Under the pieces are notes generated by a model that saw nothing but the letters and a program-made list of their open reading frames with translations, made no database searches and was not told where the DNA came from. A stretch of DNA of 64,000 nucleotides from NCBI RefSeq assembly GCF_001748145.1, contig NZ_BCQA01000001.1, forward strand, positions 5,730,501 to 5,794,500, read 5' to 3'. Below are positions 22,049-28,993 of this stretch, piece after piece (the first letter of the stretch is position 1; each line of letters starts with the position of its first letter). A program made the position numbers and the translations under genes. Source of the stretch: Bosea sp. BIWAKO-01. GTDB taxonomy: Bacteria; Pseudomonadota; Alphaproteobacteria; Rhizobiales; Beijerinckiaceae.

Positions 22049-23710
<1,662 letters not shown>

Positions 23711-23714
23711 GACC

Positions 23715-24449
23715 ATGGCAGAGTTCTTCCATCGCAAGTTGGAACGCAGCGCCATCGGCTTCGTGCTGGCCATCATCGGCGTCTCGGCGATCGGCGGGTT
23801 CGTCGAGATCGCGCCGCTCTTCACCATCCACGAGACGGTCGAGACCGCGCCCGAGATGCGCGTCTACACGCCGCTCGAAACGGCCGGGCGCAACATCTAT
23901 ATCCGCGAGGGCTGCTATGCCTGCCACAGCCAGATGATCCGGACACTGCGCGACGAGGTCGAACGCTATGGCCCCTATTCGCTCGCGGTCGAGTCGAAAT
24001 ACGATCATCCGATGCTGTGGGGCTCGAAGCGCACCGGCCCGGACCTGGCGCGGCTCGGTGGCAAGTACTCCGACGCCTGGCATGTCGCGCATCTGATCAA
24101 TCCGCGCGAGGTGGTGCCGCAATCGGTCATGCCGAAATATGGCTGGCTGATGCGCAACGAATTGCGGACCGAGGATCTCGGCCAGCACCTCGCCGCACTG
24201 CGCGTTGTCGGCGTGCCCTATACCGATGCGATGATCGCGAATGCGAGCGCCGATGCCTATGGCCAGGCCAACCCCGACAGCCCCTATGCCAGCGGCGTCA
24301 GCGAGCGCTACGGCGAGGCCACCACCATGCGGGCGTTCGACGGGCAGCCAGGCCGCCTGACGGAGATGGACGCGGTGGTTGCCTATCTCCAGGTCCTGGG
24401 CCGCCTGACCGATGCGGCGCATCGGCTGCCGGCGTCCACGGCAAGGTGA
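23715..24449 (+). CDS. ccoO: cbb3-type cytochrome c oxidase subunit II
   Basis: A 244-residue monoheme cytochrome c with an N-terminal membrane anchor ([19 protein letters not shown]) and one heme site CYACH in [15 protein letters not shown], the exact ccoO motif. The axial Met is expected in [13 protein letters not shown]. It passes electrons from CcoP to CcoN in the periplasm. Confidence 0.96.
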
Positions 24450-24453
24450 GGCG

Positions 24454-24624
24454 ATGGACATCGATCATCAATCGCTCGTCGGATTCGCCAAGAGTTGGGG
24501 CCTTTTCTACCTGATCGCGCTGGCGGCTGGCGTGCTGATCTATGCTCTGTGGCCCTCGAACCGGGCCCGCTTCGACAGAGCCAGGAAGAGCATTCTCGAC
24601 AAGGACGACAGGCCGGGGGACTGA
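24454..24624 (+). CDS. ccoQ: cbb3 oxidase small subunit CcoQ
   Basis: A 56-residue single-helix protein, MDIDHQSLVGFAKSWGLFYL at its start and ending with a charged tail DKDDRPGD. CcoQ stabilises the cbb3 complex. The ATG at 24454 lies five bases after the ccoO stop; the frame is open further upstream into ccoO but the family begins at MDIDH. Confidence 0.9.
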   Translation: MDIDHQSLVGFAKSWGLFYLIALAAGVLIYALWPSNRARFDRARKSILDKDDRPGD

Positions 24625-24627
24625 AAC

Positions 24628-25506
24628 ATGGACCAGGCGAAGCGGGACCCCGTCACGGGACAGTTGACGACCGGTCACGAGTGGAACGGCATTGAGGAAC
24701 TCGACACGCCGATTCCGCGCGTGGTGCTGTTCTTCCTGGCGGCCTCGACGCTGTTTGCGGTGATCTATTGGCTGCTGATGCCGGCCTGGCCGCTCGGCTG
24801 GACCTATACGAAGGGTCTGCTCGGCAACGACCAGCGCCAGATCGTGGCCCGCCAGGTCCAGGATGCGGTGGCCGAGCGCGCCGCCTGGACCGACCGCATC
24901 GCCAAGGCCTCCTTCGCGGAGATCGCCGCCGATCCCGCGCTGATGCGCCATGTGCGCGACACCGGGCGGACCCTGTTCGGCGACAACTGCGCCGTCTGCC
25001 ATGGCAGCGATGGCAAGGGCGGACCGGGCTTCCCCAATCTCGCCGCCGGCTCCTGGCTCTGGGGCGGCGAGCCCGAGGCGATCGCCGAGACCATCCGCGT
25101 CGGCATCAACGGAACGAGCGCGCAGACGCGCGCCGCGCAGATGCTGGCCTTCGGCCGCGATGGCATGCTCACCCGCGAGCAGGTGTCAAACGTCGTTGCC
25201 TATGTCCTCTCGCTTTCCGGGCAGCCGCTCTCGGAGGCGGACCAGGCGCGCGTGCCCGCCGGCAAGCAGGTGTTTGCAACAACCTGCGTCGCCTGCCACG
25301 GCGAGGACGGCAAGGGGCGGCACGATCTCGGCGCGCCGGACCTCACCGATGCCGCCTGGATCTATGGCAGCGATCCGCAATCGGTCTTCGACAGCGTCCA
25401 TTACGGGCGCCAGGGCCATATGCCGAGCTGGGAGGGCCGCCTTTCACCGACCGACATCAAGCTGCTTGCGCTCTATGTCGGGACGCTGCGGGATGGCGCA
25501 CGATGA
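24628..25506 (+). CDS. ccoP: cbb3-type cytochrome c oxidase subunit III
   Basis: A 292-residue diheme cytochrome c. It has the N-terminal segment GHEWNGIEELDTPIPRVVLF and one membrane helix, then two periplasmic heme domains with CAVCHGSDGKGG and CVACHGEDGKGR. CcoP receives electrons from soluble cytochrome c. The stop overlaps the ATG of the next small gene (ATGA). Confidence 0.96.
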   Translation: MDQAKRDPVTGQLTTGHEWNGIEELDTPIPRVVLFFLAASTLFAVIYWLLMPAWPLGWTYTKGLLGNDQRQIVARQVQDAVAERAAWTDRIAKASFAEIAADPALMRHVRDTGRTLFGDNCAVCHGSDGKGGPGFPNLAAGSWLWGGEPEAIAETIRVGINGTSAQTRAAQMLAFGRDGMLTREQVSNVVAYVLSLSGQPLSEADQARVPAGKQVFATTCVACHGEDGKGRHDLGAPDLTDAAWIYGSDPQSVFDSVHYGRQGHMPSWEGRLSPTDIKLLALYVGTLRDGAR

Positions 25507-25709
25507 GCCCCTCGGGCAACGGGCGAGCGCGGCGACCCGCCAGCCGGCGGGCGCTCTGGCTGGCACTGCTGGTCGCAGGAGTGGCGCTCGTCGCCGTCGC
25601 CAACGCGCATCTGGTCTTTGTGGCGATCGGCTCGCAGCCGGACTGCGTGCCACATGCGAAATCGGCGGGCGAGGCAGGCATGTTTCGTGCCGCCCGCCCG
25701 GCCTGCTGA
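25503..25709 (+). CDS. small membrane protein in the cbb3 cluster, unknown
   Basis: A 68-residue protein with a very basic start (RARRPASRRALW), one helix (LALLVAGVALVAVANAHLVF) and a short periplasmic tail containing two cysteines (PDCVPH and the C-terminal Cys). It overlaps the ccoP stop by ATGA, so it is co-translated with the oxidase. It is far too short for CcoH (about 150-170 residues) and has no CcoG-like iron-sulfur motifs. The Cys-bearing tail could take part in assembly or copper handling; this is inference. Confidence 0.7.
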   Translation: MSPSGNGRARRPASRRALWLALLVAGVALVAVANAHLVFVAIGSQPDCVPHAKSAGEAGMFRAARPAC

Positions 25710-25725
25710 AGCGGGGAGGAGCATC

Positions 25726-26526
25726 ATGGGCACGATCGAAAACGGCCAGATCGAAAGCGGCCAGGACATGCCGCTGCCCCTCGCCGCACAGCGACGGCGC
25801 AACCTGCCGGCGGGCACGGCTTTCGCCTGGCTCGGAGCGGGCTGGCGCGATCTCTGCCACAGCCCCGTGCCGAGCCTGCTCTACGGAACAGCGGTGTTCC
25901 TGGTGTCGCTCGGCATCGTCTGGGGGCTGTTCCGCTACGAACTCGACTACATCCTGCTGCCCGCTCTCGCCGGCTTCATGGTGGTCGGGCCGATCCTGGC
26001 GATCGGCCTTTACCAGAAGAGCCGCGACATCGAGGCCGGCCACCCCGTCAGCCTCGCACGCATGATCTTCGTCAAACCGGCCTCGGGCGGCCAGGTCTGG
26101 TATACCGGCGCCATCCTGTGCCTGTTGATGCTGGTCTGGATGCGGGCCGCCGTGATCATCTATGCGCTGTTCTTCGGCTTGCGACCTTTCCCCGGCCTCA
26201 ACGATGTCCTCGCCATGCTGGTCTCGACGCCGGAAGGCTGGGCGATGCTGCTCGTCGGCACGGTGGCGGGCGGCCTGTTCGCGGCCTTCTCCTTCGCGAT
26301 CAGCACCTTCGCGATCCCGATGCTGCTCGACGAGAGGGTCGACGCCTTCACGGCGATGGGCACCAGCATCTCGCTCGTCTGGAACAACCTGCCGGTGATG
26401 CTCGCCTGGGGCGCGATCGTGCTCGCGCTCTTCCTCCTGAGCGTCGCGACCGGACTGCTCGGTCTGATCGTCGTCTTCCCGCTGCTCGGCCACGCGACCT
26501 GGCATAGCTATCGAGCGGTCAGATGA
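25726..26526 (+). CDS. DUF2189 membrane protein in the cbb3 cluster
   Basis: A 266-residue protein with about six membrane helices and the DUF2189 pattern: WLGAGWRDLCHSPVPSLLYG at the start of the domain, GFMVVGPILAIGLYQKSRDIE in the middle and a FAISTFAIPMLLDERVD segment late. GGGGAGGAG precedes the ATG at 25726. It sits exactly where ccoG and ccoH normally lie, and its stop overlaps ccoI (ATGA). DUF2189 proteins have no assigned function; a role in cbb3 maturation is suggested only by position. Confidence 0.85.
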   Translation: MGTIENGQIESGQDMPLPLAAQRRRNLPAGTAFAWLGAGWRDLCHSPVPSLLYGTAVFLVSLGIVWGLFRYELDYILLPALAGFMVVGPILAIGLYQKSRDIEAGHPVSLARMIFVKPASGGQVWYTGAILCLLMLVWMRAAVIIYALFFGLRPFPGLNDVLAMLVSTPEGWAMLLVGTVAGGLFAAFSFAISTFAIPMLLDERVDAFTAMGTSISLVWNNLPVMLAWGAIVLALFLLSVATGLLGLIVVFPLLGHATWHSYRAVR

Positions 26527-28778
26527 GCTGCTGCGCGCCGCCGTTCGACGTCTCCGGCACGTTCGACGGTTCCGCGGCCCGGCAGGAAATCCGGCTCGCC
26601 AGCCGCGAACTGGGCGACGGCCTCAGGCAGGCCGATCTCTCCGTTCCGGGCGTTCACTGCGCAGCCTGCATCCGCACGATCGAGACCGGCCTGATGCAGG
26701 TTTCCGGCGTCGAGAACGTCCGGGTCAACCTGTCGACCCGGCGTGTCGCCGTGAAGTGGCGCGGCGAGGAGGCTCCCGACCTGCTGGCGGCACTGGCCCG
26801 GCTCGGCCATCCCGGCCACCTCTTCGAGAGCGAAGCGGACCGGTCCGATCCGGAGCTCGCCCGCCTGATCCGGGCGCTCGCGGTCGCCGGCTTCTGTTCG
26901 ATGAACATCATGCTGCTTTCGGTCTCGGTCTGGTCCGGGGCCGAACGGGAGACCCGGAGCGCCTTCCACTGGATTTCGGCCGCGCTGGCCCTGCCCTGCC
27001 TCATCTATTCCGGCCGCGTCTTCTTCGACTCGGCCTGGTCGGCGCTGCGCCACGGTCGCACCAATATGGACGTGCCGATCTCGATCGGCATCTGCCTCGC
27101 CTTCGGTCTCAGCCTTTACGACACGCTGCATGACGGCCCGCATGCCTATTTCGACGCTGCGACCTCGCTGATCTTCTTCCTGCTGATCGGGCGGACCCTT
27201 GACCATCTCATGCGCGAGAAGGCGCGTGCCGCGGTGCGCGGCCTGATGCGCCTGTCACCGCGCGGAGCCATGGTGCTGCGGGCCGATGGCAGCCGCGACT
27301 ATCTTCCACTTGCCGAGATCGAGCCGGGTATGCGCGTCGTGCTCAACGCGGGCGATCGCATCCCTGTCGATGGCGTGGTCGAGGAGGGAGCCTCCGAGCT
27401 GGATTGCGCCATCGTCAGCGGCGAGAGCGCGCCGCGCTTCGTGGCCGTGGGTGCCACAGTGCGGGCGGGAACGCTCAACCTCTCCGGTCCGCTGACCATT
27501 GCGGCAACCGCAAGGGCCGAGACCTCCTTCCTTGCCGAGATGGTCCGGCTGATGGAGGCTGCCGAGGGCGGGCGCGCAGGCTATCGGCGCATCGCCGACC
27601 GGGCGGCCGCGCTCTATTCGCCGGTGGTCCATGCCACGGCCTTCCTCACCTTTCTCGGCTGGCTGATGGCAACGGGCGACTGGCATCGTGCGATCACCGT
27701 CGCCATCGCCGTGCTGATCATCACCTGTCCCTGCGCGCTCGGGCTCGCCGTGCCGATCGTGCAGGTGCTGGCGTCGCGGCGCCTGTTCGAGAACGGCATC
27801 ATGGTCAAGGACGGTTCGGCCATCGAGCGCATGGCCGAGATCGACATGGCGGCCTTCGACAAGACCGGCACCCTGACACTCGGACAGCCGCGCCTCGTCA
27901 ATGGCGGCGGCATCGCCCCGGCGGATCTGGCGATCGCGGCCGAGATCGCCCGCCGCTCCAGCCATCCGCTCTCGCGCGCGATTGCCGCTGCAGCGCCGGC
28001 CGGCGGCCACACGCTGTCGGACCTTCGGGAATATCCCGGTTTGGGCATCGAGGGGCGGCTGCAGGGGCAGCTCTACCGGCTCGGCCGGGCCGAATGGGCG
28101 CTTGCCGCAGACGTCTGCGGGCACGAGGCCGGTACAGTGCTCAGCCGTGACGGCAAGTGGCTCGCCAAGTTTGCATTCGAGGAGGCGCTGCGTCCGCAGG
28201 CGAAGGCCGCGATCGCTGCGTTGCGCAGCGAGGGCATCGCAATCGCACTGCTCTCCGGCGATTCCGAAGCCTCCGTGCACAGCATTGCCGCCAGGCTCGG
28301 CATCGGCACGGTCGCCGCAGGGTTGCTGCCGGCGCAGAAGGTCGAGCGGCTCGCCGCCCTCGCGGCCCAGGGCCGCAAGGTGCTGATGATCGGCGATGGC
28401 CTCAACGATTTACCCGCGCTCGCCGCGGCGCATGTCTCGATGGCGCCGGCCTCGGCCGCCGATATCGGCCGCAATGCAGCCGATTTCGTCTTCCTGCATG
28501 ATGGACTCGACGCGGTCCCGACCGCACTCGAGCTCGCGCGCGGCTCCGCCCGGCTGGTGCGGCAGAATTTTGCGCTCGCGATCCTCTACAATGCCGTCGC
28601 ATTGCCGATCGCGATTGCTGGCTATGTCACCCCGCTGATCGCGGCGCTCGCCATGTCGCTGTCCTCCGTCCTCGTCGTCGCCAATGCGCTGCGTCTCAAG
28701 AGCGGATCATCCGTTTCTCCTCAGCCAGCCGGAACGATCTCGGCAAAACCGGCGCTGGTCGCGGAGCCGGGCCAATGA
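26523..28778 (+). CDS. ccoI: copper-exporting P-type ATPase CcoI/FixI
   Basis: The 751-residue P1B-type ATPase supplies copper for cbb3 assembly. An HMA domain with GVHCAACIRTIE lies near residue 45, followed by membrane helices, the transmembrane copper motif CPCALGLA, phosphorylation site DKTGTLT, nucleotide-site His in SSHPLSRAIA and hinge GDGLNDLPAL. The extra cysteine-rich start MSCCAPPF is common in FixI. It begins at an ATGA overlap with the DUF2189 gene and overlaps ccoS at its end. Confidence 0.96.
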   Translation: MSCCAPPFDVSGTFDGSAARQEIRLASRELGDGLRQADLSVPGVHCAACIRTIETGLMQVSGVENVRVNLSTRRVAVKWRGEEAPDLLAALARLGHPGHLFESEADRSDPELARLIRALAVAGFCSMNIMLLSVSVWSGAERETRSAFHWISAALALPCLIYSGRVFFDSAWSALRHGRTNMDVPISIGICLAFGLSLYDTLHDGPHAYFDAATSLIFFLLIGRTLDHLMREKARAAVRGLMRLSPRGAMVLRADGSRDYLPLAEIEPGMRVVLNAGDRIPVDGVVEEGASELDCAIVSGESAPRFVAVGATVRAGTLNLSGPLTIAATARAETSFLAEMVRLMEAAEGGRAGYRRIADRAAALYSPVVHATAFLTFLGWLMATGDWHRAITVAIAVLIITCPCALGLAVPIVQVLASRRLFENGIMVKDGSAIERMAEIDMAAFDKTGTLTLGQPRLVNGGGIAPADLAIAAEIARRSSHPLSRAIAAAAPAGGHTLSDLREYPGLGIEGRLQGQLYRLGRAEWALAADVCGHEAGTVLSRDGKWLAKFAFEEALRPQAKAAIAALRSEGIAIALLSGDSEASVHSIAARLGIGTVAAGLLPAQKVERLAALAAQGRKVLMIGDGLNDLPALAAAHVSMAPASAADIGRNAADFVFLHDGLDAVPTALELARGSARLVRQNFALAILYNAVALPIAIAGYVTPLIAALAMSLSSVLVVANALRLKSGSSVSPQPAGTISAKPALVAEPGQ

Positions 28779-28993
28779 GCAGCCTCGTTTTCCTTGTCCC
28801 ACTGGCCCTCCTGCTCGGCGCCTCGGCGCTCGCCGCTTTCCTCTGGTCCCTCAAGAGCGGGCAGTACGAGGATCTCGACGGAGCGGCCGAGCGCATCCTG
28901 CTCGATGACAAGGACGACCGGATTGCAACAGAACACCAGGACGACGTCGCCCCGCTCGAGCGGACCACGCCGCAGAACATCCCAATGAAGTGA
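28775..28993 (+). CDS. ccoS: cbb3 oxidase maturation protein CcoS
   Basis: A 72-residue single-helix protein with the CcoS signature FLWSLKSGQYEDLDGAAERI directly after the helix. CcoS is needed to insert cofactors into CcoN. It overlaps ccoI by ATGA and ends the cluster. Confidence 0.93.
   Translation: MSSLVFLVPLALLLGASALAAFLWSLKSGQYEDLDGAAERILLDDKDDRIATEHQDDVAPLERTTPQNIPMK

Follow-up and report, generated by a model that had tools for sequence, protein, structure and literature searches.

The window, the whole 64,000-nucleotide stretch of DNA analysed here, carries a cbb3 oxidase gene cluster on its plus strand between positions 22049 and 28993, in the order ccoN-ccoO-ccoQ-ccoP-(68 aa)-DUF2189-ccoI-ccoS. 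The first gene, ccoN (22049..23710), encodes a 553-aa protein of a lineage that we call type 2 and scores 643 bits against TIGR00780, above the equivalog cut-off of 583 bits. It is followed by ccoO (23715..24449; PF02433 and TIGR00781), ccoQ (24454..24624; PF05545, 58.6 bits) and ccoP (24628..25506; TIGR00782, 299.6 bits). The next open reading frame (25503..25709) encodes a 68-aa protein, here called mini-CcoH, in which a CcoH-like membrane segment, recognized by profile comparison, precedes a tail with two invariant cysteines. Downstream lie the gene for a DUF2189 integral membrane protein of the type-2 subfamily (25726..26526; PF09955, 131 bits against a cut-off of 26.2), a gene for a copper P-type ATPase (26523..28778; TIGR01511, 522 bits), which we named ccoI from its position, and ccoS (28775..28993; TIGR00847, 78.6 bits). 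ATGA overlaps join ccoP to the 68-aa ORF (25503-25506) and the DUF2189 gene to ccoI (26523-26526), and ccoI and ccoS are joined in the same way. The family matches and coordinates bear out the gene order and the first two overlaps as given in a preliminary description of this DNA. The nearest named relatives belong to Bosea.

CcoG and CcoH are usually regarded as standard parts of cbb3 biogenesis. The preliminary description stated that both of their genes are absent from the window, which is so; the genome does have them. Our genome-wide search (7.33 Mb, two contigs) located the only ccoG (C1:4599298-4600644) and the only ccoH (C1:4598745-4599197) outside the window, inside a complete canonical ccoNOQP-GHIS cluster at 4.60 Mb on C1, 1.15 Mb from the window operon. 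Absence of the two genes from the organism is thereby ruled out. The same description had named their presence elsewhere in the genome, together with a dispensable DUF2189 gene, as evidence against its proposal, and the first of these two is what we found. The canonical cluster is preceded by an Fnr/FixK-type gene, and its examined stretch contains no DUF2189 gene. By itself, this genome is no proof that ccoG and ccoH are dispensable; the evidence that they may be comes from other genomes.

A third DUF2189 copy in this genome lies on the 494-kb second contig (approximately 8761-9603 of locus L007), where it is fused behind a cytochrome-like fragment and lacks the conserved WMRAAVIIYALFFG block. 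It adjoins genes that resemble, by eye, those for pseudoazurin and NosR/NosZ, and it looks like a decayed type-2 remnant.

Distribution of the type-2 operon and of ccoG, ccoH and ccoI

When named genomes were scanned with an alignment of DUF2189 proteins, 122 relatives came up, the best 80 of which were taken as loci; because these were chosen by DUF2189, its presence in them proves nothing. We also searched with the window's CcoN a set of 389 genomes of the same class that had been picked without regard to DUF2189 (the class draw). In eleven genomes besides the window's own, CcoN identity was 72-83%, whereas the best match beyond these reached 62%; the loci fetched from these eleven brought the number of type-2 loci to 91. 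In a draw of 396 genomes from the phylum, CcoN at 69% identity or more occurred in 10 genomes, including the window's, all of them in the window's class. Judged from sequence, type-2 cbb3 is a distinct lineage, met only inside this class in the genomes drawn. A tree built from 100 CcoN rows placed type 2 on one side of a branch with an SH-aLRT of 97 and a length of 0.47, and thirteen fixed differences separated it from the canonical lineage. Twenty-six His/Tyr columns, including H122, H237, H271, H321, H322, H409 and H411, were kept in more than 97% of both lineages.

Among the 80 loci, nearly all those on long enough contigs showed ccoN-O-Q-P-(68 aa)-DUF2189 in the same direction, usually followed by ccoI and ccoS; the gene caller overlooked single genes in some of them. 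Using tblastn, we found the 68-aa gene in 90 of the 91 type-2 loci (79/80 and 11/11), and the contig of the sole exception, L070, begins 81 bases before DUF2189, too late to show it. A DUF2189 gene was likewise present in all 11 fetched class-draw loci, on the opposite strand in L222. Conservation of the neighbourhood in relatives, a check that the preliminary description had named, is thus evident.

Several individual loci deserve mention. Genome G870, the one further member of the window's genus listed with a match in the phylum draw, contains a CcoN match of the canonical type only (58% identity); even inside this genus, then, the type-2 operon has a patchy distribution. L223 (G492:C1:34000-48000) holds a deeper-branching ccoNOQP with 62% CcoN identity, a divergent DUF2189 gene and, close by, a distant heme-copper-oxidase-like gene; no 68-aa gene was found there. 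L034 and L070, from metagenome-assembled genomes titled Arenimonas and Bacteroidetes, respectively, carry alphaproteobacteria-like type-2 genes, which are probably binning contamination.

Fifty of the 80 DUF2189-chosen genomes, mostly isolates, were tested for ccoG, ccoH and ccoN. Type-2 ccoN was present in all 50 (only partially in G235 and G238), and ccoG, ccoH and canonical ccoN (at least 714 bits; split pieces in G212) occurred together in the same 31. The remaining 19 had no canonical ccoN, ccoG or ccoH, nor any CcoG homologue at E 0.001 (0/19). They include Labrys sp. KNU-23, whose record is titled complete, Kaistia, Chelatococcus asaccharovorans, Bosea robiniae and Afipia massiliensis; most genomes without ccoG and ccoH are draft assemblies. 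On a tree of the 50 type-2 CcoN proteins, ccoG status switched at least six times on well-supported branches. In the class draw, ccoG at E 1e-20 was found in 0/6 type-2-only genomes, 6/6 genomes with both types and 158/161 canonical-only genomes (Fisher p 2.5e-9, kinship ignored). Two of the three canonical-only genomes without ccoG (G305 and G524) had just weak or partial ccoN matches. Separately, locus L224 (G578:C7) contains ccoNOQP of the canonical type with ccoS and DUF2189 behind it but no ccoG, ccoH or ccoI in the stretch, and its genome lacks any ccoG match.

The question raised earlier, whether genomes with the DUF2189 operon lack ccoG and ccoH elsewhere, thus receives a divided answer: 19 of the 50 lack both, but 31 have both. 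An alternative maturation gene set does exist, because type-2-only genomes lack ccoG and full-length ccoH (19/50; in the class draw, ccoG is missing from 6/6) and the neighbourhood is strongly conserved.

The gene ccoI was linked downstream in 63 of the 91 type-2 loci by tblastn; outside these 63, gene calling revealed it in L060, L085 and L088 as well, and two of the rest lie near contig ends. With L085 counted as linked, ccoI was absent from the type-2 operon in 15 of the 31 genomes with a canonical cluster and in none of the 19 without one; an independent-pairs test of this pattern was not significant, with too few differing pairs. Since the 80 loci were chosen by DUF2189, gene retention after ccoI loss was judged from the class draw alone, where, of the 11 fetched loci, the three that have no downstream ccoI (L219, L221 and L222) keep the 68-aa gene and DUF2189. 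We read this as suggesting that one CcoI can serve more than one enzyme, which is less true of mini-CcoH and DUF2189.

The 68-aa and DUF2189 proteins

In 78 of 89 measurable loci, the 68-aa gene has an in-frame start codon that would overlap ccoP by exactly 4 bases; our script chose the start codon nearest this overlap, so it is a possible rather than a proven start. A start giving the same overlap between DUF2189 and ccoI is available in 32 of the 63 loci with linked ccoI. The dN/dS of the 68-aa gene had a median of 0.34 (0.14-0.61) over 36 pairs from nine close sequences. Searched with the 68-aa profile, the 389 genomes yielded 12 strong matches, exactly the 12 genomes with type-2 ccoN, and three weak ones (E approximately 0.001), two of which, from one genus, fall on the CcoH helix right after ccoG; at the locus fetched for the third (G406) there is no cbb3 gene. 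Conservation in the loci, the class-scan matches, the shared start position and the dN/dS rule out a spurious ORF.

N34, H36, C48 and C68 are invariant in all 91 aligned rows of the 68-aa family, A33 and P46 are kept in 99%, and H51 is near-invariant. C68 is the final residue in 62 of 90 relatives, the rest running slightly longer; the relatives have a median of 70 residues (60-118 as called by the script) compared with 174 for the genome's own CcoH. Comparison by hhalign of the 68-aa profile (91 rows) with a CcoH profile (60 rows) gave probabilities of 90.9-94.6, with E values of 1e-6 to 7e-8 for one comparison. The alignment places helix on helix and continues to the [ST].P after the helix. 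Controls with CcoN, CcoG, CcoI, CcoS, CcoQ, the N-terminal parts of CcoP and CcoO, and DUF2189 did not exceed 5.2; reversing the profile gave 0.2, and none of 40 block-shuffled profiles scored above 15. FixH (PF05751) is the only Pfam match of the window protein, below the cut-off (11.9 against 23 bits, E 0.23), and the commonest one in the family (3/27 members, best E 0.043); a PDB sequence search with the 68-aa profile had a best E of 0.13, to an unrelated protein.

These results suggest that the 68-aa protein, which falls outside Pfam FixH membership, is a CcoH reduced to its membrane helix and a two-cysteine tail, although the homology covers approximately 46 residues, mostly one helix. 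The preliminary description, which treated it as a stranger in place of ccoH, must be corrected on this point. Like CcoH/FixH, the protein has an N-terminal helix with an N..A..[ST].P pattern and the corresponding gene position; unlike them, it has no periplasmic domain, carries the two-cysteine tail and scores below the Pfam cut-off. The arginines before the helix suggest that the N-terminus lies inside and the cysteines outside. Published work tentatively locates the helix of CcoH beside TMH9 of CcoN (PMC7876108), and CcoH is said to bind CcoP via its membrane domain (PMC8267372, citing Pawlik 2010) and to remain in the mature cbb3 complex (PMC8267372 and PMC7876108). A CcoH cut to its helix makes sense given this helix placement and the binding of CcoP through the membrane domain.

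The window's DUF2189 protein has a full PF09955 domain match with the HATWH end motif, and type-2 rows form one group in the DUF2189 tree (SH-aLRT 96). C132 is the sole near-invariant cysteine, there is no paired-Cys motif, and the HxxxH is also common to copies not linked to cbb3. W35, G54, Q123, R140 and F149 are common to type-2 and canonical-linked copies but mostly missing in 30 unlinked ones. DUF2189 genes lie beside 30 of 65 non-type-2 cbb3 clusters, 29 of them within 500 bp counted between open frames, and 25 of the 30 clusters have both ccoG and ccoH in the stretch; in the stretches of the other 35 of the 65, DUF2189 is missing. The control genome Caulobacter, which possesses ccoN, ccoG and ccoH, gave no DUF2189 match. 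The earlier proposal that DUF2189 stands in place of ccoG and ccoH is therefore not supported in that plain form, and a role existing only as their stand-in is ruled out, since the gene also flanks clusters that keep both. One search returned 4259 relatives of the window's protein, some of which databases label 'cytochrome c oxidase subunit I'; part of the relatives are probably real cbb3 partners.

An AF2 model of the window's DUF2189 protein (pLDDT 87) gave nothing at E 0.001 in Foldseek. The fold is tentatively CysZ/CTL-like: the CysZ sulfate permease and SLC44/PNS1 choline-transporter-like proteins share 8-13% identity with it (Foldseek E 0.57), and helical models can reach the Z scores of such matches without kinship. 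Among the structure matches listed, no copper transporter was noticed, which does not imply that there is none. The titles and abstract beginnings listed, from coverage that mostly leaves out subscription journals, contained no report of this operon, no on-topic mention of 'DUF2189' as judged by title, and none of 'COG5473'.

Proposed assembly route and alternative explanations

Directly after ccoP, type-2 loci encode the reduced CcoH-like protein (one helix and a tail with C48, H51 and C68), then DUF2189 and usually CcoI and CcoS. We consider it likely from these sequences that this is a self-contained operon for a ccoG-free cbb3 system of a distinct alphaproteobacterial lineage, using a minimal CcoH, DUF2189, CcoI and CcoS. 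Mini-CcoH would be made coupled to CcoP, insert with its N-terminus inside and cysteines outside, and pack its helix against CcoN/CcoP in the manner of CcoH, thereby serving as both assembly factor and small subunit. The CcoH periplasmic domain and the cupric reductase CcoG would be dispensable for the type-2 enzyme, and CcoI would export Cu(I) for CuB; in Campylobacter, loss of ccoG is reported to lower activity without abolishing it (PMC8267372). For type-2 oxidases and many, though not all, canonical ones, DUF2189 would be a partner in the membrane that either helps assembly or is an accessory subunit. The weakest step of the proposal is that a disulfide or Cu(I) may be held by the cysteine tail. 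Against this reading, we count the canonical ccoG and ccoH of the window's genome, which could also serve the type-2 enzyme. A broader version has slightly less than an even chance: DUF2189 would be an unrecognised cbb3 partner in Alphaproteobacteria, and type 2 would be a ccoG-free form with a one-helix, cysteine-tailed CcoH, possibly fitted to nitric-oxide-rich, denitrifying conditions.

An alternative to this ccoG-free assembly route is that neither protein is a maturation factor and both instead belong to the oxidase as accessory subunits or link supercomplexes. The published persistence of CcoH in the mature enzyme agrees with this, and both genes remain in the three class-draw loci where ccoI has been lost, as expected of subunits; their position before ccoI and the coupling to it suggest biogenesis instead, and we regard a purely structural role as possible without favouring it. 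The preliminary description suggested an alternative assembly or copper-delivery module; on this view, CcoG and CcoH would give way to a new copper-delivery module made up of DUF2189 and an unrelated copper protein of 68 aa. The type-2-only genomes without ccoG and full-length ccoH fit such a replacement, as do the invariant C48 and C68 and the near-invariant H51, and DUF2189 could still do CcoG's job in type 2. This version is nevertheless improbable, given the kinship of the 68-aa protein with CcoH, the DUF2189 genes adjoining clusters that retain ccoG and ccoH, and a DUF2189 cysteine and histidine pattern offering one near-invariant cysteine and an HxxxH shared with unlinked copies. Less probable still is a relic, a degraded operon that lost ccoG and truncated ccoH because a canonical cluster supplies both. 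Such a cluster is indeed present in the window's genome and in 31 of 50 others, but the 19 genomes without one contradict a relic, provided that their cbb3 is active. In addition, purifying selection acts on the 68-aa gene among close relatives, and the CcoN His/Tyr columns are kept in both lineages.

The flanking genes raise a further explanation, in which the type-2 oxidase is tied to nitric oxide or denitrification and its extra proteins serve that role. Among 143 type-2 flank proteins scanned were 19 Rrf2-family regulators (beside the operons of L019, L021, L023, L025 and L028, for example), 5 NapC and 3 NnrS proteins. The 103 flank proteins of other clusters included 9 DsbD-like proteins (DsbD_2 family, loci among L223-L286) and 8-9 Crp-type proteins, and Rrf2 was not among the 25 families listed for them, a listing that reaches single members. 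Neighbours of this sort are common for type-2 operons. Genes like napC/napB adjoin type-2 ccoN in L013 and L016-L018, and nor-like genes, divergent from the operon, do so in L012 and L014. An exact FNR-type box (TTGA-N6-TCAA) lies upstream of ccoN in 11 of 85 type-2 cases and in 31 of 64 canonical ones, each gene being assigned to a type by its best match; it directly precedes ccoN of the canonical cluster in the window's genome, and a search of the window for it found none. However, the scanned flanks of the window operon contain no denitrification gene, the two Rrf2 proteins scanned score approximately equally as RirA and NsrR, both below the cut-offs, and although NorQ has a Pfam match, NorB and NorC were named from position, with weak or no curated matches. 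A DUF6522 gene follows the operon in L016, L017 and L021, and a gene after several type-2 operons (L021), a globin by eye, matches no Pfam or NCBIfam model. Type 2 may be connected with nitric oxide or denitrification, although we consider this rather doubtful as an explanation of the extra proteins.

Comparison with known systems

Our comparative data indicate that a ccoG-free cbb3 system exists and is widespread in the class, with CcoH apparently shrunken rather than replaced, and that DUF2189 is a wider cbb3 neighbour. A lineage without CcoG and with CcoH trimmed to its helix marks what may be dispensable in cbb3 biogenesis and points to the CcoH membrane helix as the part under selection. 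In type-2-only genera such as Labrys and Kaistia, nature offers a direct way to see which components of cbb3 assembly are needed, and the type-2 operon gives a domain of unknown function a concrete genomic context.

Campylobacter jejuni ccoX, ccoY and ccoZ, described as unknown genes between ccoP and ccoH that are essential or important for activity (PMC8267372), are also extra genes after ccoP; they belong to a different bacterial group and are likened here by description only. The canonical ccoNOQP-ccoGHIS (fixNOQP-fixGHIS) arrangement and the type-2 operon share ccoNOQP, the order of ccoI and ccoS, and a gene for a CcoH-type helix between ccoP and ccoI. In contrast to the canonical arrangement, the type-2 operon has no ccoG, its CcoH is cut to 68 aa, DUF2189 stands before ccoI, the FNR box is rarer, and CcoN and DUF2189 each group apart.
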